Shown in pieces: positions 2,915 through 25,975 of a stretch of 64,000 nucleotides of DNA. Made by a program: the position numbers and the translations under genes. The stretch lies in the NCBI GenBank assembly GCA_002723255.1, contig PBNW01000038.1, positions 19,102-83,101 on the forward strand, in the 5' to 3' direction. Position 1 is the first letter of the stretch. Every line of letters starts with the position of its first letter. Below the pieces are notes generated by a model, which was not told where the DNA came from, ran no database searches, and saw only the letters and a list, made by a program, of their open reading frames with translations. The DNA is from Pelagibacterium sp. (GTDB lineage: Bacteria; Pseudomonadota; Alphaproteobacteria; Rhizobiales; Devosiaceae).

Positions 2915-3041
2915 AAGAGCCCTCCTTGTGGATGGCCCTGACCATGCCGGCTAACGCATTGCCGGTAAAGCGCGATTGCGGAAGCCTTTGCTTTACCGCT
3001 ATCGTTACAGAGCGAGCGTGGGAACAATCAGGAGTCTGCCT

Positions 3042-6000: not shown

Positions 6001-6353
6001 TTCCGCTGACCAGAACCGATCTGTCCGGCGTCTCGGTGGCGGGGGCGCGCTACAAGGCCTGGCAACCCGCCTCGGGCCTCCATCCCGAACTGCCGGTCAA
6101 CACCCCGCTGGTGTTCGACGTTTATGACAATTGGACGGGACGTGCCGTGGGCGGGTGCATTTATCACGTCGCCCACCCGGCCGGCCGGAACTATGAAACC
6201 TTTCCTGTGAATGCCAACGAGGCCGAAGCAAGACGGCTTGCGCGATTCATAGCCAATGGACATAGTGCCGGATCGTATGATTTGCCGGCCGAAGCGCCCA
6301 CGCCCGAGTTTCCTCTGACGCTGGACCTGAGGCGACCCCACCAGTGGCTTTAG
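3042..6353 (+). CDS. Transglutaminase / DUF2126 putative amidoligase fusion protein
   Basis: A 1103-residue cytoplasmic protein with two units. Residues 1-300 are a bacterial transglutaminase-like domain with its N-terminal beta region and a complete Cys-His-Asp triad: Cys181 in GSCRDTGW, His230 in DLHAW and Asp246 in GLDPTSG. The remaining roughly 800 residues match DUF2126, which Pfam describes as a putative amidoligase (families compared in the Iyer et al. amidoligase survey). I chose the ATG at 3042, 22 codons inside the longest frame, because it has AGGAG 8 bases upstream and begins the conserved [18 protein letters not shown] core. It is the first gene of the cluster with the ATP-grasp/alpha-E and second transglutaminase genes. 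The substrate is unknown; a role in making or trimming an unusual peptide or protein tag is predicted only. Confidence 0.85.
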
Positions 6354-8757
6354 ATGACCGCTTCTCCCTCCGCCGCCAAGGCACAAAAGATGCCTGACCT
6401 GATCGGCGCGTATCGCCCGATCTCGGGCGTGCCCGATGAAATGGTCGCGCCCGACGGCACGGTCAAACCCGGCTGGTTCAAATTCATGTCGGCGCTGGAC
6501 GCGCTGGGGGCCGAGGAGCTGACCAACCGCTTCCAGCACGCCGACCAGTATCTGCGCGACGCGGGCGTTTTCTACCGCATGTATGACGGGCTCGAACAGG
6601 GCGAGCGCGACTGGCCGCTGGCCCATATCCCGCTGTTGATCGCCGAGGACGAATGGCGCGGCATCGAAGCCGGCCTCGCCCAGCGCGCCGACCTGCTCGA
6701 AACGGTGATTGCCGATATCTATGGCAACAACGCTCTGGTCCGCGATGGCCTGCTGCCGCCCGAGCTGATTGCCGGCAATCCCGAATTCCTGCGCCCCATG
6801 GTCGGCATCGAACCCATGAGCGGCCATCACCTTCATTTCTGCGCCTTCGAGCTTGGCCGCGGCCCCGATGGGCGCTGGTGGGTGCTGGGCGACCGGACAC
6901 AGGCACCCTCGGGGGCGGGGTTTGCTCTGGAAAACCGGGTGGCGACCACCCGCGCTTTGGCCGATATCTATGCCGATCTCAACGTCCACCGCCTGGCCGG
7001 CTTTTTCCGCGATTTCCGCAACGCGCTGACCGACATGGGCGGCAATGGATCGGGCCGCGTGGCGATCCTCACCCCCCGGCCCGCTCAACGAAACCTATTT
7101 CGAGCACGCCTATATCGCGCGCTACCTTGGCTTCCTGCTGGTGCAGGGCGAGGACCTCGTTGTCGTCGATGGTGAGGTCATGGTGCGCACCGTCTCCGGG
7201 CTCAAGCCGATTTCGGTGCTCTGGCGGCGGTTGGACGGGGACTTTACCGACCCGCTGGAGTTGCGCCAGGACAGCCACATCGGCACCCCCGGCCTGACCG
7301 AAGCGGTGCGGCGCGGATCGGTGGCGTTCGTCAATTCGCTGGGAGCGGGAATTTTGGAAACCCGTGCGCTCGGCGCCTTCCTGCCGGCCATCGCCAGATC
7401 ACGGCTGGGCTCCGATCTGGCACTGCCCAACATCGCCACATGGTGGTGCGGCGGCGAAGAGGCCCGCGCCTATGTGCGCGACAATTTCAATGACCTGCTG
7501 GTCGGCCCGGCGCTCTCCACCCTTTTGTCCATCGACGATGACGGCGGCACTGCCGCCATTGCCGATCTCGACCCGGCGGCGCGCGCCGACCTGCTGGCAA
7601 AAATCGAATCCGACCCCAAAGCCTTCGCGGCGCAGGAAGCGGTCAAGCTCTCAACGGCCCCGGTCTATGTCGGCGGCGCGCTCGAACCGCGCCCCATAAC
7701 GCTGCGGGTTTATGCCGCCCGCACGGCAGAGGGCTGGTCGATCATGCCGGGCGGCTTTGCCCGCGTCGGCTATGCGCTCGATACCGCCGCCATTGCCATG
7801 CAGCGCGGGGGACAGGCCGCCGATGTGTGGGTGGTCAGCGAAAGCGAGGTCGAACAGGTCACCCTGCTCGCCAAATCCAATTCAACGATCGAACGCAACC
7901 CGTCGGGCAATCTGCCCTCTCGCGCCGGGGACAATCTGATCTGGCTGGGGCGCTATGCCGAGCGCTGCGAGGCCAGCGTTCGCATCCTGCGCGCCTATCA
8001 TCTGCGGCTTGCCGAACTGGGCCGCGAGGACAACCCACTGCTGGTGGCCACAAGCGCCTATCTCGAACCGCTCGGCATCGACGCCACCGAAGCGGTCCCG
8101 GCCGGGCTTCTGGCCATTATCGATGGCGCGGTGCGCTCGGCCAGCCAGATCCGCGACCGCTTTTCGCCCGATGGCTGGCTGGCGCTGACCGATTTGCAAA
8201 AGACCGCCAGGCGGTTTGCGCGCACCATAAAGCCCGGCGACGACGCCACCCGCGCCATGACGGTGCTGCTGCGCAAGCTGGCCGGCTTTTCCGGCCTCGT
8301 GCATGAAAACATGTACCGCTTTGCCGGCTGGCGCTTCCTTGAAATCGGGCGCCGGCTCGAACGCGGCATCCAGATTGCCGAAATCGCCACATGGCTGTGC
8401 GCGCCCGACGCGCCGGAAGGGGCGACCGAAATGCTGCTCGAAATCGGCGACAGCGTGATGACCCACCGCCGGCGCTATGGATATGGCTATGGCAATCTGG
8501 GCGCTGTGGAATTGCTGATTTCCGATCCGCTCAACCCGCGCTCGGTGATGTTTCAGCTGACCGAACTGCTCGAGCAACTCAAGGAACTGCCCGGCGGCTA
8601 TGTCGATGGCCAGCTCTCGGCCGCCGCCAAGGCCGCTCTCAAACTCCAGACCGAACTGGCGGTGATCGACGCCGCCGACGTGAACCCCGACATGCTGGTT
8701 GGGGTCGGCAACGGGCTGGCCAACATCTCCAATTTGATCTCGGAGATGTATTTCTGA
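6354..8757 (+). pseudogene. Circularly permuted ATP-grasp / alpha-E domain protein, interrupted by a +1 frameshift
   Basis: Two overlapping frames together encode one protein of about 800 residues. The 5' frame (6354-7175) gives the N-terminal part of a circularly permuted type 2 ATP-grasp enzyme, starting directly after the preceding stop. The 3' frame, open through 8757, continues it with LNETYFEHAYIARYLGFLL and then the C-terminal alpha-E domain. The frames join at a run of six C (7072-7077); with five C the text reads smoothly through ILTPGPLNETYFEHAY. So there is a single extra base, either a real frameshift, a slippage site, or a sequencing error in a homopolymer. ATP-grasp enzymes of this type are predicted to form amide bonds with the partner amidoligase. 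Everything apart from the shift looks intact, with no other stops, so decay would have to be recent. Confidence 0.85.
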
Positions 8758-13962: not shown

Positions 13963-14445
13963 CTACCCCATCGAATAAGGCAGATACCCGATAAACCCCG
14001 TGAGCTTCCACGCGCCCTCGATCCGCGCCAGCGTATAGACCGACTGCCAGTCGAGGATGTCGAAGGTGCCGTCTTTCATGGCGACCTTGCCGTTGAACTT
14101 CTTGTGCGCCAGCGCGCGGTCTGCGGTGATTTCGATGTCGGTGAGTTCGGTCGCGCCGAATACGCCGGCCCGGGCGGTTTCGATTTCGGCCCGAGGCGCG
14201 AAATCGCGGGCGCCGGCCAGCCAGGAATCGCGATAGCTCTCCAGCGTCGGGAAACTGACCCGCCAGTCATCGGGATTGCCCGAGGCCCTGCCATCGATGC
14301 CCATGAAGCGCTCGGCGGCGAAATCGGGTTCGACCATCGACCAGTCACACGCCAGAAACGCCTCGATGTCGCGCGCCACCAGCATTTCCCAGATGGCATG
14401 GCGATCGGGGTCATCGGCGAAGGGATTGAGCGCGTAAAGGTCCAT
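13963..14445 (-). CDS. Hypothetical NTF2-like (SnoaL-fold) protein
   Basis: A 160-residue soluble protein. Its pattern of an N-terminal helical region, a W-x-V-S-F stretch and a C-terminal beta region ending in a conserved-looking W-K-L-T-G-F motif (EGAWKLTGFIGYLPYSMG) suggests the cone-shaped NTF2/SnoaL fold. No catalytic function can be assigned. Its ATG directly abuts the stop of the GNAT gene (TAAATG), so it is the last gene of the chitin-oligosaccharide importer operon and is probably translated by re-initiation. It may bind a small molecule related to that pathway; that is only a guess from context. Confidence 0.6.
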   Translation of the reverse strand: MDLYALNPFADDPDRHAIWEMLVARDIEAFLACDWSMVEPDFAAERFMGIDGRASGNPDDWRVSFPTLESYRDSWLAGARDFAPRAEIETARAGVFGATELTDIEITADRALAHKKFNGKVAMKDGTFDILDWQSVYTLARIEGAWKLTGFIGYLPYSMG

Positions 14446-14907
14446 TTATTTGAGCATGTCCCTGTAGATGCCCGGTTTGGAATTGGGGATTTCCATGGCG
14501 TCGAGCTTCTTTTTGTAAAAGTCCACAGGCCCCGGATCGCCAATCACCGCGTAAGCAAAGCCCCTGTCGCGCAGATCTTCGAGCGTTCGGAACAACAGCG
14601 CCTCCCCGATCCCCCGCCCGCGCGCCGTTTCGAGCACGCCGGTCGGCCCAAAAAAGCCCCGCGCCGTGACATCGCCGCAGGCAAAACCCAAAAGGCCCGA
14701 CGCATCCGTCGCCAGCCACACATCGATGGGCTGGTGGGAAAACCCCACTTCGACCTCGCTGCGCCAATGGCGGGAAAAATGGGCCTCGACCCAGTCGGCA
14801 ACCAGCCCGCGCTCGGGAGGGAGCGCCCGGCGCAGGGTGGCACCTTGTCCCGAAACGCGCGAATAGTCGTAGCGGGGAAGATCGTAAAGGCGAACGAGAA
14901 GGTCCAT
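14446..14907 (-). CDS. GNAT-family N-acetyltransferase
   Basis: A 153-residue acyltransferase of the GNAT fold. The acetyl-CoA binding signature is visible in the ARGRGIGEALLFRTLEDL stretch (about residues 93-110), followed by GFAYAVIGDPGPVDFYKKK, the usual beta-5/alpha-4 region. I chose the ATG at 14907, which begins MDLLVRLYDLPRYDYSRV, because it overlaps the stop of the upstream ATPase gene as TGATG, giving tight coupling; the longer frame reads antisense into the ATPase gene. It sits in the chitin-oligosaccharide importer operon, so an amino sugar or its derivative is an attractive substrate, but the substrate is not visible from sequence. Confidence 0.75.
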   Translation of the reverse strand: MDLLVRLYDLPRYDYSRVSGQGATLRRALPPERGLVADWVEAHFSRHWRSEVEVGFSHQPIDVWLATDASGLLGFACGDVTARGFFGPTGVLETARGRGIGEALLFRTLEDLRDRGFAYAVIGDPGPVDFYKKKLDAMEIPNSKPGIYRDMLK

Positions 14908-15851
14908 CAGGTGGCGTCCATGTCCTGGAATCTGTGACGCACAAAATGCCCCGGCTCGACCTCGACGGGCAAGCCCGCCGGCTTGCGCGCCAGCGCCCGC
15001 ACCTTTTCGATGTTCTGGGCAAACGCCCTGCCCCCATCCGCATCGGCAACAAAGCGGACATTGGGGTCTGGCACGGCCGAGAGCAGCACCTTGGTATAGG
15101 CATGTTGCGGATTGGAAATAACGCTGTCCGAGGGCCCCCACTCGACCACCTGCCCACCGAACATTACCGCGGTGTCCTCAGCCAGATAATGGGCGGTGGC
15201 GATATCGTGGGTAATGTAGAGGAATGTGATGCCGCGCTCGGCCTTCATGCGTTGCATCAGGCCCAGCACCGATTTGCGGATCGACACGTCGAGCATGGAG
15301 GTGGGCTCGTCCGCAACGATCAGTTCGGCCCCCACCGCAAGCGCCCGGGCCAGATTGACCCGCTGGCGCTGGCCGCCCGACAGTTCGTGCGGATATTTTT
15401 CCAGCGTCACGGCGGGGTCCAGTTCCACATCGGCCAGAACGCCCCGCACCTCATCGGCCAGCCCGCTGCCGCCAAGCTTTTTGTGCAGTTTGAGCGGGCG
15501 TTCGAGGTGGTGACGGATGGTATGGGCCGGATTGAGCGCGGCAAACGGGTCCTGAAACACCATCTGCACGGCCTGCGAATAGGCAAGTTCCTCGGCGCGC
15601 CCCTTGATATCGGCAATGTTGCGGCCCTTGAACCTCACCTGGCCTTCAGAAAGCTGAAACAACCGGGTGACGGCCCGCCCGATTGTCGATTTGCCCGAGC
15701 CCGATTCACCAACGATGGCAAGGGCCCTGCCCTTTTCAACGCTCAGCGAGACATTGCGCATGGCAACGACCTCCTTGGCGGCGCCGAACATGGGCTTGAG
15801 ATGAAAGACTTTCGAGGCGTTGTCGATTTCGAGAAGCGGTGCGTCAGACAT
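14907..15851 (-). CDS. Oligopeptide/chitooligosaccharide-type ABC transporter ATP-binding protein, DppF/OppF-like
   Basis: A 314-residue ABC ATPase of the peptide-importer class with Walker A GESGSGKST, signature LSGGQRQR, Walker B LIVADEPTSMLD and switch His in ITHDIATA. The C-terminal region carries the oligopeptide-type extension with SDSVISNPQHAYTKVLLSAVP, typical of OppF/DppF. The ATG at 15851 is preferred over a TTG one codon earlier: it overlaps the upstream ATPase stop (TGATG) and has GGGAGG upstream. With the DppD-like subunit it powers the importer. The binding protein indicates chitin oligosaccharides rather than peptides as cargo. Confidence 0.87.
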   Translation of the reverse strand: MSDAPLLEIDNASKVFHLKPMFGAAKEVVAMRNVSLSVEKGRALAIVGESGSGKSTIGRAVTRLFQLSEGQVRFKGRNIADIKGRAEELAYSQAVQMVFQDPFAALNPAHTIRHHLERPLKLHKKLGGSGLADEVRGVLADVELDPAVTLEKYPHELSGGQRQRVNLARALAVGAELIVADEPTSMLDVSIRKSVLGLMQRMKAERGITFLYITHDIATAHYLAEDTAVMFGGQVVEWGPSDSVISNPQHAYTKVLLSAVPDPNVRFVADADGGRAFAQNIEKVRALARKPAGLPVEVEPGHFVRHRFQDMDAT

Positions 15852-16648
15852 CAACTTGCCTCCCTCACTGCGATCTTTGGCATCGCATCCCAGAGCTTGC
15901 GCGTGTAGTCGTGCTGCGGATCGGAAACGATGGCGGCGGTCGGCGCGTGTTCGACGATCTCGCCCTCGAGCATCACGGCGATCCGATCGGCAAACTGGCT
16001 CATCAGCGCCAGATCATGGGTTATGAACAGGATCGAGAACCCGAACTGCGCCTTGAGCGCCATGATTTCCTGCAGGATTTCGCGCTGCACCACCACATCG
16101 AGCGCCGTGGTGGGCTCGTCCATGATGATCAGCTTGGGGTTGAGCGCCAGCGCCATGGTCAGCACCACCCGCTGGCGCATGCCGCCCGAAAGCTGGTGCG
16201 GGTAATCGTCGAGCCGTGCGGCGGGGATGCCGACAAGAGCCAACAGCTCTTCGGCCCGCGCCCGGATTTCCGGCCGTGAAAGGCCAGTGTGCCGCGCCAG
16301 CATGTCACGGAACTGCTCGAATAGGGTCAGCACCGGATTGAGCGAGTTCATCGCGCTTTGAAACACCATGGACACCGACGACCAGCGCCATTTTTCCAGT
16401 TTGGCGGCCGGCATGGCCAGCACATCGGTGCCATCGATCGTAATGGAGCCCTTGGAGATGATGGCGGGCGGGCGGTGCAGGCGCATCAGGGAAAAGGCGA
16501 TCGTCGATTTCCCCGAACCCGATTCTCCGGCCAGCCCCATCACCTCGCCCTGCCCGATATCGAAATCGACGTTCCTGACGGCGGTGAACAACCCCTTGCC
16601 GGTGAGATAATCGACCTGCAAGCCGCGAACCGAAACCAGTGCTCTCAT
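15851..16648 (-). CDS. Oligopeptide/chitooligosaccharide-type ABC transporter ATP-binding protein, DppD-like
   Basis: A 265-residue ABC ATPase, Walker A GESGSGKST, signature LSGGMRQR, Walker B LIIMDEPTTALD and switch His in ITHDLALM. It is shorter than typical DppD (about 325 residues): it stops soon after IVSDPQHDYTRKLWDAMPKI and lacks most of the C-terminal oligopeptide extension, including the cysteines that bind an iron-sulfur cluster in some DppD proteins. Overlaps of a few bases on both sides tie it to the DppC and DppF genes. It forms the heterodimeric motor with the DppF-like protein. Confidence 0.86.
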   Translation of the reverse strand: MRALVSVRGLQVDYLTGKGLFTAVRNVDFDIGQGEVMGLAGESGSGKSTIAFSLMRLHRPPAIISKGSITIDGTDVLAMPAAKLEKWRWSSVSMVFQSAMNSLNPVLTLFEQFRDMLARHTGLSRPEIRARAEELLALVGIPAARLDDYPHQLSGGMRQRVVLTMALALNPKLIIMDEPTTALDVVVQREILQEIMALKAQFGFSILFITHDLALMSQFADRIAVMLEGEIVEHAPTAAIVSDPQHDYTRKLWDAMPKIAVREAS

Positions 16649-17562
16649 TGTGCTGCCTCCAGCTTGCCGGCCGCGCGCTGACGGTCGAGCTTTTCCTGCG
16701 CTTTGGCGGCCGCCGCTATGGTACCGAGCGTGCGCAGCCGCGGGTTGGAGATTTCATCGACCCCGAAATTGAGAAGCGAGAGCCCGATGCCGATGCCCGC
16801 CACCGCAACGGCCGGGGCCAGCACTTCCCACCACGCCCCCACGGTGATCGCCGATGAATTCTGGGCATGGTAGAGCATGGTGCCCCACGACACCGACATG
16901 GGATTGCCCAGGCCCAGAAATTCCAGCGTCGCCTGGGTGATGATGGTGTAGGTCACCGAACCGATGAAATTGAACCCTATGATCGAGAGCAGGTTGGGCA
17001 GCAATTCCACAAAGATCATCCGGTGGGCCGGCTCGCCGATCAACTCGGACGCCTGGATATATTCGCGCTGGCGCAAGGTCATTGTCTGGGCGCGCGTCAC
17101 CCGCGCCCCCCATGCCCATGAGGTCACCCCGATGATGATGGCGATGACGACGGGTGAGGTCTGGCCAACGAAGGCGGCGATCACCAAGAGCAGCGGCAGT
17201 TGGGGAATGACGAGCACGACATTGGTGCAGAAATTGATGATCTCGTCGATAACGCCCCCGAAATAGCCCGCGGCAATGCCCAAAACGGTGCCGATCATCA
17301 CCACCAGCAGCCCGGCGAAAAACCCTACGGCCAGCGAGGTGCGCGTGCCATAGACCAGTTGCGAAAAGACGTCGCGTCCCATCCGGGTCGTGCCCATCAG
17401 CGCCTCGCCATCGGGGGGCGTATGGGGGCGGCCCACCCGCGCCATGGGATCGGCGCCCAGGATCATCGGCCCGAAAACGGCGACCAGGACATAGGCGAGC
17501 ACGATCAGCAGGCCGAAGGCCGCCTTTCGGTTGCGCAGAAAAACCTTGAGGGTTTCAACCAT
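16645..17562 (-). CDS. Peptide-type ABC transporter permease, DppC-like
   Basis: A 305-residue inner-membrane permease of the DppC/OppC class. The N-terminal segment FLRNRKAAFGLLIVLAYVLV and the periplasmic stretch leading to GTTRMGRDVFSQLVYGTRTS are characteristic of the family, and the ATPase-contact loop is seen as QREYIQASELIGEPAHRM. The ATG at 17562 fits the family N-terminus; the in-frame codons before it belong to the adjacent gene. It is 4 bases from the DppB stop and overlaps the DppD start. A basic C-terminal tail of about 25 residues (AAAAKAQEKLDRQRAAGK) is longer than usual. Confidence 0.86.
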   Translation of the reverse strand: MVETLKVFLRNRKAAFGLLIVLAYVLVAVFGPMILGADPMARVGRPHTPPDGEALMGTTRMGRDVFSQLVYGTRTSLAVGFFAGLLVVMIGTVLGIAAGYFGGVIDEIINFCTNVVLVIPQLPLLLVIAAFVGQTSPVVIAIIIGVTSWAWGARVTRAQTMTLRQREYIQASELIGEPAHRMIFVELLPNLLSIIGFNFIGSVTYTIITQATLEFLGLGNPMSVSWGTMLYHAQNSSAITVGAWWEVLAPAVAVAGIGIGLSLLNFGVDEISNPRLRTLGTIAAAAKAQEKLDRQRAAGKLEAAQ

Positions 17563-17566
17563 GATC

Positions 17567-18544
17567 TCAGGCCCTCCGCAGACGCGGGTCGAGCAGCACA
17601 TAGGCCAGATCGACGATGAGGTTTGCCGTCAGGATCGCCAGCGTCATGATGAGCAGCTGGCCCTGGATGAGCGGGTAATCGCGGGTGACGATGCCGATAT
17701 AGAGCGTCTGGCCGAGGCCGGGATAGTTAAACACCACCTCGGTGACCAGCGAGCCGCCAAGGATTGCGCCCAGCGTCAGCCCCAGCGACGTGACCGAAGG
17801 CAGGAGCGCGTTGCGGGCCGCGTAGTTGAACTTGACCCGGCGTTCCGACAGCCCCTTGGCCAGGCCCATGATCACATGGTCCTCGCCGAGCTGGCCGATC
17901 ATGTTGTTGCGCATGGTGACCAGATAGCCGCCCACGAAAACGATCATCAGCGAGATGACCGGCATCAGGCCGTGGACGAAGACCGAGCTGATGTAGGTCC
18001 AGGTAAAGCCTGGGTCCAGGCTGGGATTGAAGGCATATCCGGTCGGCAGCCAGCGCAGGGCAACGCCGAAAACGAACAATGCGACAATGGCGATCACAAC
18101 CGGCGGAATGGCCTGCAGGGCCAGCGACGCGGGGGTGATGATGGCATCGAACGCCCCGCCGCGCTTCCAGGCGGCAAAAATGCCCATCAACGTGCCGATG
18201 GCAAAGGCCAGCACCGTCGCGCACCCGGCCAGAAGCAGCGTCCAGGGCAGCGCATAGCCGAGCCGCTCGTTGACCGTCTGGGGATAAAACCGGATCGAAT
18301 AGCCGAAATCGCCGGTAAACACCGATTTGAGATAGGAGAAATACTGCTCGTGCAGCGGACCTGTGGCAAACCCGAAGGTTTCGATCAGCGCGGCCCGCGC
18401 TTCGGGCGGGATCGTCGTTTGCGACTGGGCAAACATGATGTCGATGGGATTGCCGGGCATCAGCCGCGGCAGAATGAAATTGATGGTGGCCGCAACGAAG
18501 AATGCGGCGATGTAAAAGCCCAGTCGGCGCAGGACGAAAGCCAT
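17567..18544 (-). CDS. Peptide-type ABC transporter permease, DppB-like
   Basis: A 325-residue inner-membrane permease with the family start LRRLGFYIAAFFVAATINFI followed by LPRLMPGNPIDIM, typical of DppB/OppB. Six hydrophobic segments and the C-terminal GLGQTLYIGIVTRDYPLIQG motif of the class are present. It is the first permease after the binding protein, separated by 70 bases, and forms the channel with the DppC-like protein. In Vibrio the equivalent genes (VC0616-VC0619 as I recall) import chitin oligosaccharides; sequence similarity to peptide permeases alone would not have shown this. Confidence 0.87.
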   Translation of the reverse strand: MAFVLRRLGFYIAAFFVAATINFILPRLMPGNPIDIMFAQSQTTIPPEARAALIETFGFATGPLHEQYFSYLKSVFTGDFGYSIRFYPQTVNERLGYALPWTLLLAGCATVLAFAIGTLMGIFAAWKRGGAFDAIITPASLALQAIPPVVIAIVALFVFGVALRWLPTGYAFNPSLDPGFTWTYISSVFVHGLMPVISLMIVFVGGYLVTMRNNMIGQLGEDHVIMGLAKGLSERRVKFNYAARNALLPSVTSLGLTLGAILGGSLVTEVVFNYPGLGQTLYIGIVTRDYPLIQGQLLIMTLAILTANLIVDLAYVLLDPRLRRA

Positions 18545-18614
18545 TCTTTCTCTCCGCTACGAGGATGAGATGACGCGGCCCGAAGGCCGCGTCACAGAGA
18601 TGTCGGAGCAAGGA

Positions 18615-20288
18615 TCAGTCTTCGACCGGGCGCAGGGCGAGCAGGTGCAGCAGCCGCTCGGGAACGCCCGAATAATCGACCGGGCGCGCCACGGGGTTGT
18701 CAGCGTTGAAAAACCCGGTGAACCGCGTGGTGTTGTACTCGTACCAGAGCGGATTATCGAACACCCAGACCACCGGCATGTCCTCGGCGACCAGCATCTG
18801 GATTTCGTTCATGAACTCCTGCTGTTCGTCGGGATCGATGGTTGTGTTGAACGCATCGAGGGCTTCGTCGAGCTCGGGGTTGGAGTAGCGGGCCGACTGG
18901 AAGCGGCTCTGCCCGATATGGCGCGAATGGAGCGCCTGGTCGAGGAAGTAGTGCGGGGTAACGCCCGTGGTGACCGAGTTGATCGCCGCTTCGTAATCGC
19001 CGGCGATGAGCTGATCGGTCCAGGCCGGGCTTTCCGGGGTCTGCATGGTGGCGTTGATGCCGAGCGCGTTCAGGCCCTCGACAGCGAGTTGGACCGTATT
19101 GACCCAGTCGGTCCAGCCATTGGGAACGATGATGTCGAATGCGATCGGCTCGCCGCTCGGGCTGTCGATGAACCCGTCGCCATCGGCATCGGCATAACCG
19201 GCTTCCTCGAGGATCGCCTGTGCGCCCTCGATATCGAACTCGGTGTACTGGCCGTATTCGACTTCGACCTCGGGGTTGTTCCAGGTGTGATAGGCGCGTC
19301 CAAGGCCCGAGGGATAGTCGTTGACGGTGGGATAGCCGTAGCCGGCGATATCGACCATCGCTTCGCGGTCCATGGCCATGGAAAAGGCGCGGCGGAACGC
19401 AACATCGTTGAACGCTTCATTGAGGCCGGGGTCTTCGGTGGTCATGTTGAGCGAGAAATAGACCGGCGAACCCGAGGGGAACCAGTAGCCGTGATGGTCG
19501 GGGTCGAGCCCGACATAGGTGCGCTCGATATCGGGCAGGAACGAGCCGAACCAGTCAAGCTCGCCATTGGCGGCCGCGGCCAGAACCTGATCGTTGTTGG
19601 CAAGCTGAGGCAGACGCAGGCAATCGACGTGCAGGCTTTCGGCATCCCAGTATTCGGGGTTGCGGCACTGGATGTATTCCTGCGGGGTGAACCGCTCGAT
19701 CTCGGACATGGCGCCCGAGGCGACATGGTCGGGATTGGTGTAAGTCACCGGGTCTTCGACCTCGGCCCACACATGTTCGGGGACCGCATAGACCTGGACG
19801 AGCTGGTAGATCAGCCCGGCATCGACTTCGGTGAGCTTGAACTCGATGGTGCGATCGTCGGTGGCCGTGACGCTTTCGAGCTTGGGCCAGACCGCGCGGG
19901 TATCGAGCGCGGGAAAGTCCTTGATGAGGTTGAAGGTGAACGCCACGTCGTTTGCCGTGAGCGGCTCGCCATCCGACCAGCTCAGGCCCTCGCGCAGGGT
20001 GAAGGTGAGGGTCAAGAGATCGTCGGAATACTCATACGATTCCGCCAGCCGGTATTCCGGCGTGCCGCCCTGCAGGGCGTTGAAGATCACCAGCGGCTCG
20101 TACATGAAATCGATGACCGTCGGCAGCACGGTCGTTGTGTTGAACGGGTTGTAATTTTCGACCCAGGCCGTCAATTGCTGGGGCACCATGGTGAGGATGG
20201 CGCGGTCGTCGTCCTGGGCCTGGGCCAGGCCGGCCGGCAGGATCAGAACGCTGGCAAGCAGCGCCCCTTTCAAGAAAGTGGTCGTCAT
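18615..20288 (-). CDS. cbp: Chitin-oligosaccharide-binding protein, Vibrio CBP-like (family 5 solute-binding protein)
   Basis: A 557-residue periplasmic binding protein with a clear signal peptide (TFLKGALLASVLILPAGLAQ, cleavage after AQA near residue 25). Although built like a dipeptide-binding protein, long stretches match my memory of Vibrio chitin-oligosaccharide-binding protein: IDFMYEPLVIFN, YIQCRNPEYWDAESLHVDCL, LANNDQVL, VPNGWTDWVNTVQLAVEGL, YNTTRFTGFF and the end GVPERLLHLLALRPV. The length is also nearly identical. I start it at the ATG at 20288, the first codon of the signal peptide, with GGAGGG upstream. It is first in an operon with two permeases and two ATPases and is divergent from a ChiS-like kinase. 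In V. cholerae unliganded CBP holds ChiS inactive, so this protein may have both transport and signalling roles. Confidence 0.85.
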   Translation of the reverse strand: MTTTFLKGALLASVLILPAGLAQAQDDDRAILTMVPQQLTAWVENYNPFNTTTVLPTVIDFMYEPLVIFNALQGGTPEYRLAESYEYSDDLLTLTFTLREGLSWSDGEPLTANDVAFTFNLIKDFPALDTRAVWPKLESVTATDDRTIEFKLTEVDAGLIYQLVQVYAVPEHVWAEVEDPVTYTNPDHVASGAMSEIERFTPQEYIQCRNPEYWDAESLHVDCLRLPQLANNDQVLAAAANGELDWFGSFLPDIERTYVGLDPDHHGYWFPSGSPVYFSLNMTTEDPGLNEAFNDVAFRRAFSMAMDREAMVDIAGYGYPTVNDYPSGLGRAYHTWNNPEVEVEYGQYTEFDIEGAQAILEEAGYADADGDGFIDSPSGEPIAFDIIVPNGWTDWVNTVQLAVEGLNALGINATMQTPESPAWTDQLIAGDYEAAINSVTTGVTPHYFLDQALHSRHIGQSRFQSARYSNPELDEALDAFNTTIDPDEQQEFMNEIQMLVAEDMPVVWVFDNPLWYEYNTTRFTGFFNADNPVARPVDYSGVPERLLHLLALRPVED

Positions 20289-20588
20289 TGAGTGTTGAGC
20301 TCCCTCCAGTTGCACCACGGCCCCTTCGCCGCGGCTGACAGATATTCCCTCCCCGACAGCAAATGCGCCGGGATACGCCGAAAAGCGTGGGGACCATTGG
20401 GGCTGGTAAGGGAGGGTTCTGTCACGGGTGCTTTTCCGTCAATTGCGCACCCAAAACCGGCAAAACCGTCAAAATCGACGTTAAGGGGTGTGACCGGCTT
20501 TATGTATTGTACCATCCCCATATGAATAGACGATGTCACAGGTTCGGGCGAGGGGCTCTGCCTGGGCCGGGGAAAGGGAGAAACGACG
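20289..20588. promoter_or_regulatory. Divergent regulatory region between CBP-like and ChiS-like genes
   Basis: This 300-base non-coding gap must carry both promoters. It holds three tandem 9-base direct repeats at 20452-20478 (CAAAACCGG, CAAAACCGT, CAAAATCGA) and, just beside them, an inverted repeat GGGTGC (20426-20431) / GCACCC (20447-20452). A possible plus-strand promoter is near 20490-20515 (TGTGACC then TATGTATTGTACC). The direct repeats are candidates for binding by the DNA-binding tail of the ChiS-like protein. All of this is by eye; no start site is known. Confidence 0.5.
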
Positions 20589-23500
20589 ATGGGCGCGTTT
20601 GGGCTGGCACCGAAGGGTTTCCGCGGCCGCCTGTTTGCGATTCTGATCGCCATCACCACCATTCCACTGGTTTTGACCGCAACCGTCTTCTTTTCCATCC
20701 TCAACGCCAATGTCGAAGAGGAAACCTTTGCCCGCCTCGCCTTCGTGCGCGACGCCAAACGCTCCGAACTCGACCAATACCTGACCTTTGCCTTCCGGCA
20801 GGCCGATTCGCTGACCAAATCGAACGCCGTGCGCTATTCCATCGGCGATTTTTATGGCTTTTCCTATGCCTTCCGCCAGATCGACCCCGATCCCGAGCAA
20901 GCCCGCAACGTGCTCCAGGCCATTTTCGGCATCAATGGCCAGGCCCCGGCCAGCGACGGGGTGTTTTCACCCGACACCGACGCGATGGTCTCCAACGCGC
21001 TCGAATACGCCAACGCCCACCAGCGCTTCCACGAGGAATATTCGAGCTTTATCCGCTCGGCCGAATTCGACAATCTCTATCTGGTCAACACCGACGGACG
21101 GGTCGTCTATTCGGTCGAAAAGGACGCCTATCTCGGTGGCGATCTCGATGGGGGGATGGCCGAAACAGCGCTCGGGCAACTGGCCGCAGCGACCCTTGAG
21201 GGCTCTGAAACCATCCGGGTAACCGATTTTGCGCTCGATCCGCAGACCGGGACATTTGGCGCCTATGTCGCCGTTCGGGTGGAATTTTACCAGCGCCCGC
21301 GCGGCGTGGCGATCTTCCGCCTGCCAGCCAGCGGCGTCGGTGCCATCGTCCAGTCCCAGCAAGAAGAGACCGGCAATTTTTTCATGATCGCCGGCAACGG
21401 ATTGCTGGTTTCCGCGCCGGAGGACTATGCCCTTCCCATCGGTGCGACCGTTCCGACGCCACACCAGGGCCAGCCCGCCACATCCACCGCCCTTATCGGC
21501 GACGGCCTGTCGGGCGGCGCAGCACTGTCGGCCTGGGGGCCCGTCCAATTCGGAGACACCCAATGGGCGCTGCTTGCCGAAGTGCCCACCCGCAGCGCCT
21601 TTGCCAATTCCGAGGCGCTGACACGGTTTGTCCTGATGATCGCCGCCATCGCGCTGCCCATCCTGTTCTGGGTGGCATATCTGCTCTCGCGCACCATGAC
21701 CGCGCCGCTGCAAAAGCTGACCGAAGTGGCCGAATCGATTGCCGCTGGCGATCTGGAACGAACCATGCCCAGCGTGGAAAGACCGACCGAATTGGGCCGG
21801 CTGGCCGAGAGCTTCAAGCGCATGCGCGACGCCATCCGCGCCCAGCTATCCCTGATCGGGCAGAAGAATGTCGAGCTGGAGCGCCACGTCAGACTGATCG
21901 AGGAAAAGAACGCTGCGCTCGAAGAGGCCGACCGGCTCAAAGACACGTTCGTCGCCAACACCAGCCACGAATTGCGCACCCCATTGAACGGCATCATCGG
22001 CATTTCCGAAACACTCTCGGCCGGTGCCGTTGGCGAATTGACCCCGCCCCAGCGCAGCCAGCTCGACCTCATCAGCTTTTCGGCCCGCCGCCTGTCGCGG
22101 CTGGTCGATGACCTGATCGATATCTACCGCATCCGTCAGGGCCGCATGCGCCTCGATATCCACCCGGTCCACGTGGCGACCTCGATCCGCAACGTCATGC
22201 AACTGGCCGAACCGCTGCTGCGCGGCGAGCCGGTGACGCTCGACGTCGATATCCCCGAAACCATTCCCTATGTGATGGCCGACCCGGTGCGCTTCGAGCA
22301 GGTGCTCTACAACCTCCTGGGCAATGCCATCAAATACACCGACCAGGGCGCGATCTCGATCACCGCATGGCGGGCCGGCGACACCGTCGCCGTGGCCGTC
22401 ACCGATACCGGCGTCGGCATTGCGCCCGACAGTCTCGAGCGCATCTTCCAGCCGCTCGAACGCGGCGAAAGCCCCGAAATGATCGCCAAGCCCGGCGGTG
22501 CCGGACTGGGCCTGACCATCGCGCGGCAACTGGCCAGCGCCATGCACGGCAGGCTCGCCGCGCAATCGGATTTGGGCAAGGGATCGCGCTTCGTGCTCGA
22601 AGTCCCGGTCGCCGAAACCGAGGCGACCGAAGCGGAAATCCTGACCTATGGCGAGCGCAGCGAGGGCCTGCGCGAAACCATGGGCATGCTTTTGGCCGAC
22701 AGCGCCGAAATGAACTCCGCCAATGCAAACGAGGCGCCGATGATCCTCGTTGTCGATGACGAGCCGATCAACATTCAGGTCTTGCGCAACGTGCTCGCGC
22801 CCCAGGGCTATATCGTGCGCGCCGCCGAAAATGGCATGGACGCGCTGACCGCGATTGAAAATCACAAGCCCGACCTCGTGGTGCTCGACGTGATGATGCC
22901 GCAAATGGGCGGGCTTGAAGTCGCCAAGCGCCTGCGCGACCGCTACGGGCTGCTCGACCTGCCCATCATCATGGTCACCGCCCGTTCGCGCACCCGCGAC
23001 GTGATCGCCGGGTTCGAGCACGGCGCCAACGACTATGTGGTCAAGCCCTTCGTCAAGGACGAGCTTCTGGCCCGTATCGCGACGCTCCTCGAAGCCGGAC
23101 GCGCCCGTGGCACGGCACGCGAAAATATCGAACTCAAATCGGAAATCGAGCGCCGCGTGCAGGTCGAAGACGCCCTGCGGCTTTCCCAGCAACGCATGGC
23201 ACGGCTGCTCGATACGCTCGAAGCGGGCCTGCTCGGGGTCAGTGAGACCGGTCGCATCACCTACGCCAACCAGGCCGCAGCCGTGCTTGCCGGCCGTGTC
23301 ATCGACCCGGGCAAGACGCTGCTGAGCGATCTTTTGACCCCCACAATGGTCGACGCCATGACCCGCACGATTGCCGATGAAGGCCGCGTGGCGCTCGACG
23401 ATGTGCCCATGGGCAGCTCGGGCAATCCCGTCCTGCTCAACGCCTTCGAGATCGAGGCCGACGCGGGCGGCGGCTTTGCGCTGGTCATCACCCCCGACAC

Positions 23501-24023
23501 CGCGCAGACGCGCCGGCAGACCGACCATCTGGTGCGTTCGGTGCAGGGCGTTCTCGATACCGTCGGGCCGGTGCTGATCGAACAGCAGGCCATGCCCGCC
23601 AACTCCACCGCACTCGATGCAACGCCGCTCCCCGGCAAGGAAGTCTATCGCGAAACCATTGTGGCGGTGATGACCCAATCGATTGCCCTGTGGCGCCGCG
23701 CCAAGGGCGGCTCCAAGATCGACTTCGCCGAAAAAAGCGGCATCTGGCGGGTCAATCTCGACCGCTCCTCGCTGCAGGCGAGAACGCTCGACAAATATCT
23801 GCTGATCGAAACCCTGCCCGCCAACCCCCGCTGGCGCGACGTGATCCAGACCGCCGAGTTCGTGCTGGCCGACATCGAAGCCCAGATCGACCAGAACGCT
23901 GAATTCGCCGCCCAATACGAAAATCTGCGCACCCTGGCCCAGACTCTGCGCGACCTGGTGCGCGAACACATTCTCCCCAAGCCCCGGGGAGAAACCGAAC
24001 CGGCAGGCGCCCAGGACGCCTGA
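20589..24023 (+). CDS. chiS: ChiS-like membrane hybrid sensor kinase with C-terminal DNA-binding domain
   Basis: A 1144-residue inner-membrane hybrid kinase. Order: transmembrane helix (about 16-38), periplasmic sensor (about 39-345), second helix (about 347-367), HAMP, HisKA with the phospho-accepting His460 in SHELRTPLNG, ATPase domain with NLLGNAIKY near 575 and GGAGLGLTIA, receiver domain with Asp767 in VVLDVMMP, a PAS-like domain near 855-930, and a C-terminal domain (about 1015-1130) reading SGIWRVNLDRSS and RTLDKYLLIETLP. That last domain matches my memory of the DNA-binding domain of V. cholerae ChiS, and His460/Asp767 sit close to the ChiS phosphorylation sites (His469/Asp772, from memory). 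So this kinase probably binds DNA itself from the membrane and senses chitin oligosaccharides through the divergently encoded CBP. It is cotranscribed with the GH20 gene 44 bases downstream. Confidence 0.82.
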   Translation: MGAFGLAPKGFRGRLFAILIAITTIPLVLTATVFFSILNANVEEETFARLAFVRDAKRSELDQYLTFAFRQADSLTKSNAVRYSIGDFYGFSYAFRQIDPDPEQARNVLQAIFGINGQAPASDGVFSPDTDAMVSNALEYANAHQRFHEEYSSFIRSAEFDNLYLVNTDGRVVYSVEKDAYLGGDLDGGMAETALGQLAAATLEGSETIRVTDFALDPQTGTFGAYVAVRVEFYQRPRGVAIFRLPASGVGAIVQSQQEETGNFFMIAGNGLLVSAPEDYALPIGATVPTPHQGQPATSTALIGDGLSGGAALSAWGPVQFGDTQWALLAEVPTRSAFANSEALTRFVLMIAAIALPILFWVAYLLSRTMTAPLQKLTEVAESIAAGDLERTMPSVERPTELGRLAESFKRMRDAIRAQLSLIGQKNVELERHVRLIEEKNAALEEADRLKDTFVANTSHELRTPLNGIIGISETLSAGAVGELTPPQRSQLDLISFSARRLSRLVDDLIDIYRIRQGRMRLDIHPVHVATSIRNVMQLAEPLLRGEPVTLDVDIPETIPYVMADPVRFEQVLYNLLGNAIKYTDQGAISITAWRAGDTVAVAVTDTGVGIAPDSLERIFQPLERGESPEMIAKPGGAGLGLTIARQLASAMHGRLAAQSDLGKGSRFVLEVPVAETEATEAEILTYGERSEGLRETMGMLLADSAEMNSANANEAPMILVVDDEPINIQVLRNVLAPQGYIVRAAENGMDALTAIENHKPDLVVLDVMMPQMGGLEVAKRLRDRYGLLDLPIIMVTARSRTRDVIAGFEHGANDYVVKPFVKDELLARIATLLEAGRARGTARENIELKSEIERRVQVEDALRLSQQRMARLLDTLEAGLLGVSETGRITYANQAAAVLAGRVIDPGKTLLSDLLTPTMVDAMTRTIADEGRVALDDVPMGSSGNPVLLNAFEIEADAGGGFALVITPDTAQTRRQTDHLVRSVQGVLDTVGPVLIEQQAMPANSTALDATPLPGKEVYRETIVAVMTQSIALWRRAKGGSKIDFAEKSGIWRVNLDRSSLQARTLDKYLLIETLPANPRWRDVIQTAEFVLADIEAQIDQNAEFAAQYENLRTLAQTLRDLVREHILPKPRGETEPAGAQDA

Positions 24024-24067
24024 CCGAACCGCCCCAAAACCTCCGAATTTTTGTAAAGGCTGTCACC

Positions 24068-25975
24068 ATGCCCACGCCCTCGTTCCGCCTCGAAGCGGAC
24101 TGGAACCCCGAAATCGCGACGCCAGGCCAGCTCAAGATGACGCTGATCAACACCGGGCAGGAGCCGGTGGAAGGCTTCGCCCTTGGCGTCACCTCGCTGT
24201 TCCGCATCAAGCCCGACAGCCCTATCGACGGCGCAAGGCTGCTCGAGCAATTGTCCAATTACCATCTGCTCGCTCCCGCAGAGGGCTTCGTTCTCGAACC
24301 TGGCGGACGCTGGGAGATTGCGGCAAAACAGATTTCCCACACCCTGCGGCATTACACCTATGGGCCGAAATCGGCTGCCGTGACCCTGGCCGACGGCACT
24401 ATGGTGTTGCCCGAAATAGCGCCAATGACGCTGAAGGGCGAGGCGGGCACCCCCACCATAGCTCACCCGGCCCGCCAGCCCTTGCCTGAAGGCGAAACGA
24501 CGATCAGCGTCATCCCCTTCCCCGCCGCCGTGGAGGTCACCGGGAATTTGGTGCCGGCCATGATCGGCTTTGGTGAAGGGCCCGAACTCGCCTATAATTC
24601 ATACGAGGTCACAGCCGATCTGGCCCGCCGCCTGTTTCCCGGCGAAACCCTGTTCGGCGACGGATTGCCCATCCAATGCCTGACCGAAGCGCGGCTCACA
24701 GACGGCGCCTACGAGATCGTGTTTGGAGAAACCGTGACCCTGAGAGCCGGCGATGCCGACGGTTTCCAATACGGCTTTATCACCCTCGCGCAGATGCTGC
24801 GCGGCGCGCAAAAACATCCAGAAGATTTCATCTTCCCGACGTCGGGCACGATATCGGACGCCCCGCGATTTGGATGGCGCGGCAGCCATCTCGACGTGGC
24901 GCGTCAGGTGTACACAACCGACGAGATCATCGCTTTTCTCGACACCATGGCCTGGAACAAGCTCAACCGTTTCCACATCCACCTCAACGATGACGAGGGC
25001 TGGCGGCTCGATGTGCCCGACTATCCCGAACTTGCCGACAAGGCCGCATGGCGCGGCCCCGGCGAAATCCTCCCGCCCCTGCTCGGTTCACCCTTTGAAC
25101 GGCACGGGCTGGTCTATCGCGCCGCCGACGTGACGGCGATGGTCGAACACGGGCTGAGCCTGGGGATCCAGACCATCCCCGAAATCGACATTCCCGGCCA
25201 TTGCTATTGCGTGCTCAAGGCCCTGCCCCACCTCGCCGATCCCGAAGAAACCGGCATCTACCGCTCGGTGCAGTATTTCCCCAACAACGCGCTCAATCCC
25301 GCGTTGGACGAAACCTATAAATTTCTTGAAGCGGTCATCAGGACGCTGGTCGAATTGTTTCCGGCCAAATGGATCCACATCGGTGGCGACGAGGTGGCCG
25401 ACGAGGCATGGGCCGGTTCGCCCCAGGCGAAATCCCTGCAGGGACCGAACGGCTGGCAGGGCACGTTCGCGCTTCAGAGCCATTTTTTGAAACAGATCCA
25501 GTCGCTGCTGAAAAAATACGGCAAGGACACCGGCGCCTGGGAAGAGGCGGCGCTGGGCGGCGGGGTCGACCAGGACCGCTCCTACCTCGTTGCCTGGAAG
25601 AAATCGGAAAGCGGACGCGATCTGGCGCTGGCCGGCTATGACGTGGTGCTGGCCCCGGCCGAACACGCCTATTTCGACATGGCCCAATCGACCGAGTGGT
25701 GGGAGCCGGGCGCCAGTTGGGCGGGCACGGTGTCGGTCGAGACCTGTTACGCCTTCGATCCGGCTCACGATTGGCCTGCCGAGGTGCAGGACAAGCTGAT
25801 CGGCGTCCAGTCATGCCTGTGGAGCGAAAACCTCGCCAATCGGGCCCTGTTCGATCATCTGACATACCCGCGCCTGTCGGCCATCGCCGAAACCGCCTGG
25901 AGCCCGCGCGAGACCAAGGATTTCACCCGCTTCATGGCCATCCAGACCCTGATGCCCAGAGCACGGCTTGGCTGA
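24068..25975 (+). CDS. Beta-N-acetylhexosaminidase, glycoside hydrolase family 20
   Basis: A 635-residue exo-hydrolase. The catalytic Asp-Glu pair of family 20 is at Asp441-Glu442 in HIGGDEVADEAW; the (beta/alpha)8 barrel starts near residue 275 with FGWRGSHLDVARQ and continues with MAWNKLNRFHIHLNDDEGW. The first 130 residues form a beta-rich domain like the carbohydrate-binding N-terminus of many bacterial hexosaminidases. There is no signal peptide, so it should act in the cytoplasm, removing GlcNAc from chitobiose or longer oligomers brought in by the adjacent importer. It follows the ChiS-like gene by 44 bases and probably shares its promoter. Confidence 0.88.
   Translation: MPTPSFRLEADWNPEIATPGQLKMTLINTGQEPVEGFALGVTSLFRIKPDSPIDGARLLEQLSNYHLLAPAEGFVLEPGGRWEIAAKQISHTLRHYTYGPKSAAVTLADGTMVLPEIAPMTLKGEAGTPTIAHPARQPLPEGETTISVIPFPAAVEVTGNLVPAMIGFGEGPELAYNSYEVTADLARRLFPGETLFGDGLPIQCLTEARLTDGAYEIVFGETVTLRAGDADGFQYGFITLAQMLRGAQKHPEDFIFPTSGTISDAPRFGWRGSHLDVARQVYTTDEIIAFLDTMAWNKLNRFHIHLNDDEGWRLDVPDYPELADKAAWRGPGEILPPLLGSPFERHGLVYRAADVTAMVEHGLSLGIQTIPEIDIPGHCYCVLKALPHLADPEETGIYRSVQYFPNNALNPALDETYKFLEAVIRTLVELFPAKWIHIGGDEVADEAWAGSPQAKSLQGPNGWQGTFALQSHFLKQIQSLLKKYGKDTGAWEEAALGGGVDQDRSYLVAWKKSESGRDLALAGYDVVLAPAEHAYFDMAQSTEWWEPGASWAGTVSVETCYAFDPAHDWPAEVQDKLIGVQSCLWSENLANRALFDHLTYPRLSAIAETAWSPRETKDFTRFMAIQTLMPRARLG

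Follow-up and report, generated by a model that had tools for sequence, protein, structure and literature searches.

The closest described counterpart of the locus analysed here is the ChiS/CBP/chb system of Vibrio cholerae, whose sensor ChiS is VC0622. In this bacterium, deletion of CBP activates ChiS (PMC10208484), its conserved His and Asp residues reportedly play no important part in Pchb activation (PMC5519180), and Pchb contains two ChiS sites and intrinsically bent DNA (PMC8092284). The ChiS-family DNA-binding domain occurs at the C-terminus of sensory proteins from diverse proteobacteria, most hits being ChiS homologues, and the residues R1068, R1074, K1078, R1090 and R1092 are critical in that of ChiS (Klancher et al. 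2021, PMC8092284). We analysed a 64,000-nucleotide stretch (hereafter, the window) of a contig from a Pelagibacterium sp. assembly of 3.0 Mb (84% complete); the nearest genus-named relatives of the kinase and binding protein discussed below also come from Pelagibacterium. The window quite probably encodes a ChiS/CBP-type module in which a hybrid kinase gene and a CBP-importer operon diverge from each other, and which would be off while CBP is empty and turned on through a 9-bp direct repeat when a disaccharide of N-acetylglucosamine (GlcNAc) is available.

The locus resembles the V. cholerae system in the domain order of the kinase, in its five critical DNA-binding residues, in the adjacent CBP gene and in the nearby importer and GH20 genes; it also shares with Vibrio relatives of that system a direct repeat upstream of cbp. 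HAMP, HisKA, HATPase and REC domains scored above Pfam cut-offs in the kinase, with dCache and PAS below them, and hydropathy placed membrane helices at residues 15–33 and 348–366, flanking a dCache-like periplasmic domain; HAMP, kinase, REC and PAS follow in this order. The phospho-His and the receiver Asp are predicted at positions 460 and 767. Residues 1018–1114 matched PDB entry 7kpo (E 1.9e-24 and 44% identity over 97 residues for the C-terminal piece alone), a chain of 108 residues labelled 'Response regulator' whose numbering agrees with ChiS 1024–1129. Our identification of 7kpo as the ChiS domain rests on this label, on the chain length and on how exactly the five published residues fit; all of them (5/5) have identical counterparts in the window kinase. 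In 71 sequences (70 loci, described below, plus the window), R1074 and R1090 were invariant, whereas the other positions varied between basic residues: R in 50 and K in 21 at 1068, K in 69 and R in 2 at 1078, R in 59 and K in 12 at 1092.

A sequence-only reading of this DNA had proposed that a CBP-like protein heads an importer operon and diverges from a 1144-residue membrane hybrid kinase with a ChiS-like C-terminus and from a GH20 hexosaminidase devoid of signal peptide. These parts held up. The binding protein matched Vibrio CBP chains in the PDB with E 4e-161 to 1e-157 and more than 500 bits (the next kind of protein reached only 2e-53), two permeases and two ATPases accompany it, and hydropathy detected neither a signal nor a membrane helix in the GH20 protein, which contains the HxGGDE motif. 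The two outcomes set beforehand as contrary to that reading, a C-terminus dissimilar to the ChiS domain and a binding protein grouping with dipeptide binders, were both examined; we found instead the 7kpo similarity and a binding protein placed inside the CBP tree.

By analogy with V. cholerae (PMC10208484, PMC5519180), empty CBP would repress ChiS from the periplasm and loaded CBP would release it. Released ChiS is predicted to bind the 9-bp direct repeat between the two operons and, once bound, would raise the expression of both, the importer on one side and chiS with the GH20 gene on the other. The imported sugar would then likely be split by the cytoplasmic GH20, encoded behind chiS. ChiS itself would in essence be a one-component transcription factor of the membrane, to which the kinase-receiver block adds optional modulation. 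The control of ChiS by CBP is the step borrowed from V. cholerae, while the sequences themselves show the repeat, the joint occurrence of CBP with ChiS, and the parts with their order, domains and conserved residues.

With 21 CBPs as queries, named genomes yielded 393 relatives, the best 80 of which were used as CBP loci, each with up to 10 kb fetched on either side. A gene for a ChiS-type domain lay within the fetched stretch in 70 of the 80. Six of the ten remaining stretches stop at a contig end; in L043, L068, L069 and L074 (3.9 kb) there was room in the stretch, yet no ChiS-type gene was found. At thresholds of E 1e-8 for the ChiS domain and E 1e-100 for CBP, both occurred in the same 9 genomes of a class sample of 385 Alphaproteobacteria (our own genome included) and neither in the other 376; a sample of 82 genomes from the order of Niveispirillum contained 14 with both and 68 with neither. 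The link is looser in a phylum sample of 398 genomes, where 10 had both, 5 only the domain, 7 only CBP and 376 neither. Of the seven CBP-only genomes, six make up a single clade and come from the same family within the window's order. Six genomes of one family of that order (L137–L142) carry a CBP-type importer without ChiS or the motif described below, with GNAT in five of the stretches and GH20 in two. Within the window's own family, a ChiS-type protein was matched in 29 of 121 genomes, in one of these through the DNA-binding domain only; in L109 (G051:C1:1225436-1225804), of this family, a sole open reading frame (ORF) of 194 residues matches that domain and is perhaps a further cut-down form or a remnant. 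The strength of these counts is tempered by the fact that the relatives in them are non-independent samples; moreover, the samples overlap with each other and with the named loci (G391 and G295 of the order sample are also in the class sample).

A comparison by eye shows the ChiS tree to repeat the main groupings of the CBP tree (10 near-identical loci were left out of the ChiS tree, 17 loci out of a second CBP tree, and L148 out of both). In the unrooted CBP tree, 46 rows (45 alphaproteobacteria and the window) are separate from Vibrio (99*), so that a recent transfer from Vibrio is unsupported. With G851 as outgroup, the same alphaproteobacteria form a grade around the group containing Vibrio, and, as far as these trees can tell, old inheritance fits the separation of most alphaproteobacterial CBPs as well as old transfer does. 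Of the earlier suggestion that the whole regulatory design moves or is conserved as a unit, conservation is therefore what survived (70/80 loci, 9/9 among 385 genomes, 14/14 among 82, although looser across the phylum), whereas for movement the trees show no preference over old inheritance. Two alphaproteobacterial bins, L043 and L053, fall within a gammaproteobacterial clade, a hint of cross-class transfer; both are metagenome contigs of 10–16 kb.

CBP is a chitooligosaccharide-binding protein of SBP cluster C, and that of the window is 45.6% identical to VhCBP over 528 residues. Six of the ten residues of VhCBP in contact with (GlcNAc)2 (PMC8449061) are identical in it (N204, S221, W363, D365, R436 and F437), and, since these kept contacts include the R436/F437 pair linked to N-acetyl recognition (PMC8449061), we predict that its ligand is a GlcNAc-containing disaccharide, most likely (GlcNAc)2, the non-reducing end being less certain. 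The four other contacts speak against this assignment, as they are changed (E10Q, N409S, F411T and W513Y; the VhCBP chain aligned is an F411A mutant and its wild-type Phe411 was taken from PMC8449061). W513 touches the non-reducing GlcNAc in VhCBP (PMC8449061), and this position is Tyr in the window and His or Tyr in most alphaproteobacteria. The switch might be as proposed and the ligand another GlcNAc disaccharide, for example a partly deacetylated chitobiose that would be re-acetylated by the GNAT enzyme before cleavage by GH20. The four substitutions point in this direction, as does a GNAT gene in 27 of the 80 CBP loci, mostly behind the second ATPase; in the window, the GNAT product of the last importer-operon gene might restore acetyl groups on glucosamine sugars after import. 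We nevertheless regard this alternative as possible but rather doubtful, because R436, F437, W363 and D365 are kept and because 16 Aeromonas loci combine His513 with the lack of GNAT in the stretch, which indicates that the two traits are not simply coupled.

Alignment of the divergent gaps between chiS and cbp revealed a conserved block. Expectation-maximisation on 23 alphaproteobacterial loci yielded the consensus TTGACGAWTTTKMCG, and the pattern with flanks over 44 sites was ATTTTGACG ATTTTGACG, a 9-bp direct repeat. The site between the two operons of the window has the top score of the entire 64 kb (21.2 bits for the 15-bp core, the window being part of the training set of this motif). 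For two earlier motifs, whose training set of 17 loci (Rhodobacterales, Pannonibacter and Nitratireductor) did not include the window, the same site scored 12.9 bits (22-mer, with 0 of 60 random stretches of the window sequence as high) and 7.7 bits (16-mer, 3 of 60). For loci outside the training set, 100 random stretches of 260 bp from each locus served as controls (p <= 0.05, floor 0.01). The motif was present upstream of cbp in 6/7 canonical Vibrio chb loci, 15/15 Aeromonas loci (close relatives), 3/3 second-type Vibrio loci, L146 (1/1), one of the pair L031 and L063 (the miss being L063) and 1/3 Motilimonas loci; the f204 genomes are labelled Vibrio here on the basis of CBPs 82–93% identical to VhCBP. 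It was found in none of 13 CBP-type genes not next to chiS, seven of them from genomes where no ChiS domain was detected at E 1e-8 and six being extra CBP copies in genomes with ChiS elsewhere. A second copy was the next-best site, 30 bp away, in 5/7 Vibrio (matched or exceeded by 0 to 23 of 200 controls), lay 29 bp away in 8/15 Aeromonas (at most 3/200 controls) and 21 bp away in 5/6 Devosia/Rhizobium loci (strong in four), and none above background was seen in the other Pelagibacterium, Rhodobacterales and Nitratireductor loci examined. The spacing of 29–30 bp in gammaproteobacteria would fit the two ChiS sites of Pchb, and phased T-tracts would fit the bent DNA reported there.

Several observations run counter to an operator role. 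The motif was not found in L043, L049, L053 and L054 (Osedax/Oceanospirillaceae/OCS116/L053; 4/4), and it was missed in two of the three Motilimonas loci, one of the seven Vibrio loci and L063; conversely, it was present in the Aeromonas loci L068, L069 and L074, whose stretches have no ChiS gene. The window has no second copy above background (67/200). The earlier motifs recovered fewer Vibrio sites than the 23-locus one, and the 16-mer ranked two negatives high (L157, 0/60; L156, 1/60). A scan of the window's own genome was unselective (4 exact and 84 one-mismatch hits, 88 in total, versus 10 for the reversed pattern); we therefore claim no wider regulon, and a genome-wide regulon defined by this pattern was dropped. 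Alternatively, the repeat might serve as a promoter element of the -35 kind or be bound by some other factor, since it starts with TTGACG, a sequence close to the -35 box, and lies on the cbp strand in all Vibrio and Aeromonas best hits. This is unlikely for four reasons: TATAAT-like boxes (at least 4 of 6 positions) occur at 16–18 bp in 4 of 44 aligned sites versus 43 of 396 elsewhere, that is, with no excess; the second 9-bp unit is conserved nearly as well as the first; the motif was not found in any of the 13 CBP-type genes not next to chiS; and many gammaproteobacteria have a second copy at 29–30 bp. A sigma-70 promoter scan of positions 20200–20700 returned nothing.

No match to a histidine kinase or receiver domain was obtained for six of the 70 ChiS-domain proteins encoded at CBP loci. 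Four of them form one clade (Niveispirillum lacus, AAP38, TMPK1 and Aerophototrophica) and consist of a sensor, two helices, a proline-rich linker and the DNA-binding domain; L012, from a Devosia bin, has the order sensor, HAMP, linker, DNA-binding domain, and L031 is the sixth. Four further loci of the Niveispirillum lacus clade (L144, L145, L148 and L149) are also kinase-less. These proteins are about 470–660 residues long, and two membrane helices were found in the 9/9 locus proteins checked. Among those scanned with Pfam, L066, L031 and L144 gave no match, L055 a weak dCache, and L012 HAMP plus a weak dCache. Another kind, the P0018 type of metagenome proteins, keeps the PAS domain, its second helix running almost straight into it. 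Judged by ORF length, 7 of the 9 domain ORFs of the class sample are of kinase-less size (498–632 residues; G134, G391 and G367 are the same records as L066, L055 and L031), as are 13 of 14 in the order sample (502–691 residues, with one fragment of 152). In L055, a TonB-dependent receptor gene precedes the kinase-less chiS, followed divergently by GH3, CBP and importer genes; the receptor gene occupies the same place in L144, and L066, L070 and L144 have genes matching the L055 layout in size and position. The kinase-less locus L055 (8660-9691 and 3993-6608) has GH3 instead of GH20, and its TonB-dependent receptor gene adjoins chiS.

The 260 bp upstream of cbp contained the motif in only 1/7 kinase-less loci. 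Since the divergent partner of chiS is GH3 there, the chiS–GH3 gap was scanned, and a strong site appeared in 4/7 (L066, L070, L145 and L144, each with 0/200 controls as high; for L144, a misplaced stretch had given 41/200 and a wider, moved one gave 0/200). The three other loci, of Niveispirillum type, had only a weak site (11, 17 and 24 of 200 controls as high), which counts against a shared operator.

In a tree of 79 sensor-plus-domain rows, the kinase trait changes four times, all changes being forced by starred branches, and the two Devosia kinase-less cases, nested inside full-length clades, are read as losses. Set against this number, the placement of L031, a long branch, is uncertain, only context-free metagenome proteins represent the P0018 type, and two changes suffice among the rows of the CBP tree (three when the P0018 type, absent from that tree, is counted in). 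Given the uncertain L031 and the two changes in the CBP tree, three is the safe number of lineages, three or four the range. All of these keep the sensor, the two helices and the DNA-binding domain without the kinase block, which is the basis for reading the core of ChiS as one-component. Most kinase-less relatives lie beside CBP and several have a strong operator copy. They suggest that phosphotransfer is outside the minimal switch. On balance, and with some reserve, we favour a CBP-gated one-component ChiS into which the histidine kinase and receiver are an optional insert, the 'hypothetical' Azospirillales-type family being a chitin-sugar regulator whose operator, (ATTTTGACG)x2, would be shared with Vibrio, Aeromonas and the window.

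The kinase could instead be the real output, ChiS acting by phosphorelay with a secondary C-terminal domain. The phospho-His is kept in 72/72 full-length copies (one gap), the N-box is kept as well, and the receiver Asp and Lys in 73/73. Such invariance implies that the kinase has a job wherever it is kept, perhaps as a second input, and it is a difficulty for a one-component core, as is the retention of the kinase in the window's own ChiS. A further point against the overall reading is the identity of 26% over 312 residues between its sensor domain and that of a Vibrio ChiS. Even so, a kinase output is quite unlikely: three or four lineages lack kinase and receiver while sensor and DNA-binding domain stay, the kinase-less genes adjoin CBP wherever their context is known, the largest lineage has a strong operator in 4/7 loci, and the His and Asp of V. 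cholerae ChiS are reportedly unneeded for Pchb activation (PMC5519180). Decay or misassembly is a very unlikely explanation of the kinase-less genes. L012 and L031 do stem from metagenome bins, as the P0018 type does from metagenome proteins, but no record of Niveispirillum lacus, TMPK1, AAP38 or Aerophototrophica crusticola has a title marking it as a metagenome bin, the DNA-contact residues are kept, and the TMPK1 protein has 61 relatives in the protein database, under the names (among those displayed) hypothetical, uncharacterized, and cache or CHASE4 domain-containing. Finally, the reading of the locus as a common dipeptide importer that merely neighbours an unrelated hybrid kinase, suggested by the match of the importer proteins to Opp/Dpp-type models (every one below cut-off), deserves practically no credence and was rejected, as the binding protein reaches no cut-off among the listed NCBIfam peptide/nickel models (at best 103 bits for a cut-off of 650) against more than 500 bits to Vibrio CBP, co-occurs with ChiS and groups with Vibrio CBP inside the CBP tree (a tree without a true dipeptide binder, so that the separation from peptide binders is the score gap).

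The locus differs from the canonical Vibrio arrangement in that chiS and cbp are divergent, whereas they are in tandem in 6/7 canonical Vibrio-type genomes and far apart in G722. Unlike in V. cholerae, GH20 lies behind chiS, GNAT belongs to the operon, and a search of 13 genomes from the window's genus detected no GH18 chitinase. Since GH19, too, gave just two short matches in these genomes, both in a single one, the host probably lives on oligosaccharides freed by others. The window domain is C-terminal on a sensory protein, like those of Klancher et al. (2021); by contrast, the part of that paper available to us (PMC8092284) describes no CBP linkage outside Vibrio, no kinase-less form beside CBP and no shared operator, although its Data Set S1 may list some of the proteins. 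In the open literature (subscription journals being outside the scope of the search), the hits listed included no paper on kinase-less ChiS, on ChiS/CBP in alphaproteobacteria or on a cross-class direct repeat. The window module alone belongs to a known type; the kinase-less ChiS form appears to be new.

A second-type module of some Vibrio and Motilimonas is divergent like that of the window, with a CBP about 56–57% identical to the window's; position 513 is not Trp in either of them, being His in the second type and Tyr in the window. All five second-type genomes checked (Vibrio L033, L036 and L047; Motilimonas L034 and L038) hold two ChiS-domain genes, and the one beside the alphaproteobacterial-like CBP is divergent from it. 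This looks like a second, uncharacterised ChiS/CBP module. In other Vibrio-type genomes (L153, L154, L156 and L157), extra CBP copies occur without adjoining ChiS, and for three of the four no importer was recognised in the stretch. A CBP 87% identical to that of the window (P0103) is filed in a eukaryotic protein set, probably a bacterial contamination.

The module comprises, head to tail on the minus strand (14446-20288), the genes of the binding protein, two permeases, two ATPases and GNAT, and on the plus strand (20589-25975) those of the kinase and GH20, separated by 44 nt (Table 1). The longest ORF of the binding protein is 18615-20318(-); a database copy of 557 residues and the signal peptide indicate the start at 20288, and CBP start codons were generally picked by protein length (about 555 residues).

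Table 1. Positions of the module components in the window, with the evidence for each assignment
Feature	Position	Strand	Evidence or remark
GNAT acetyltransferase, last gene of the importer operon	14446..14907	-	start set at 14907; PF13508/PF00583 weak, on longer ORF 14446-15141
ABC importer ATPase 2 (DppF-like)	14907..15854	-	Pfam/NCBIfam
ABC importer ATPase 1 (DppD-like)	15851..16648	-	Pfam/NCBIfam
ABC importer permease C	16645..17601	-	Pfam/NCBIfam
ABC importer permease B	17567..18544	-	Pfam/NCBIfam
CBP-type periplasmic binding protein, 557 residues with signal peptide	18615..20288	-	Vibrio CBP structures, E 4e-161
Predicted ChiS operator, 9-bp direct repeat ATTTTGACG GTTTTGCCG	20458..20475	-	motif score
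ChiS-type membrane hybrid kinase, 1144 residues, with C-terminal DNA-binding domain	20589..24023	+	Pfam, PDB 7kpo, catalytic residues
Sensor part of ChiS, two membrane helices around a dCache-like periplasmic domain	20631..21686	+	hydropathy; dCache_1 E 1.9e-8, below Pfam cut-off
ChiS-type DNA-binding domain, residues 1018-1114	23640..23930	+	7kpo alignment
GH20 hexosaminidase, predicted cytoplasmic	24068..25975	+	PF00728 E 9e-91; closest solved structure Nag2, E 1.9e-94; HxGGDE

Behind GNAT, the ORF 13963-14445 (160 residues) had no Pfam or NCBIfam match and has a relative in only 2 of the 80 CBP loci, so that it is probably outside the module. Neither the ten flank genes scanned nor FolD showed a link to chitin. 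Elsewhere in the window (2976-8757), genes for a transglutaminase/DUF2126 amidoligase and a circularly permuted ATP-grasp/Alpha-E protein lie near each other.

The natural occurrence of kinase-less forms beside the same CBP and, at several loci, near the shared candidate operator makes both the role of the kinase and the direct control of genes by ChiS testable by comparing the two forms. With the direct repeat, ChiS has a concrete candidate DNA target in two classes, and a function can be predicted for proteins annotated as hypothetical.

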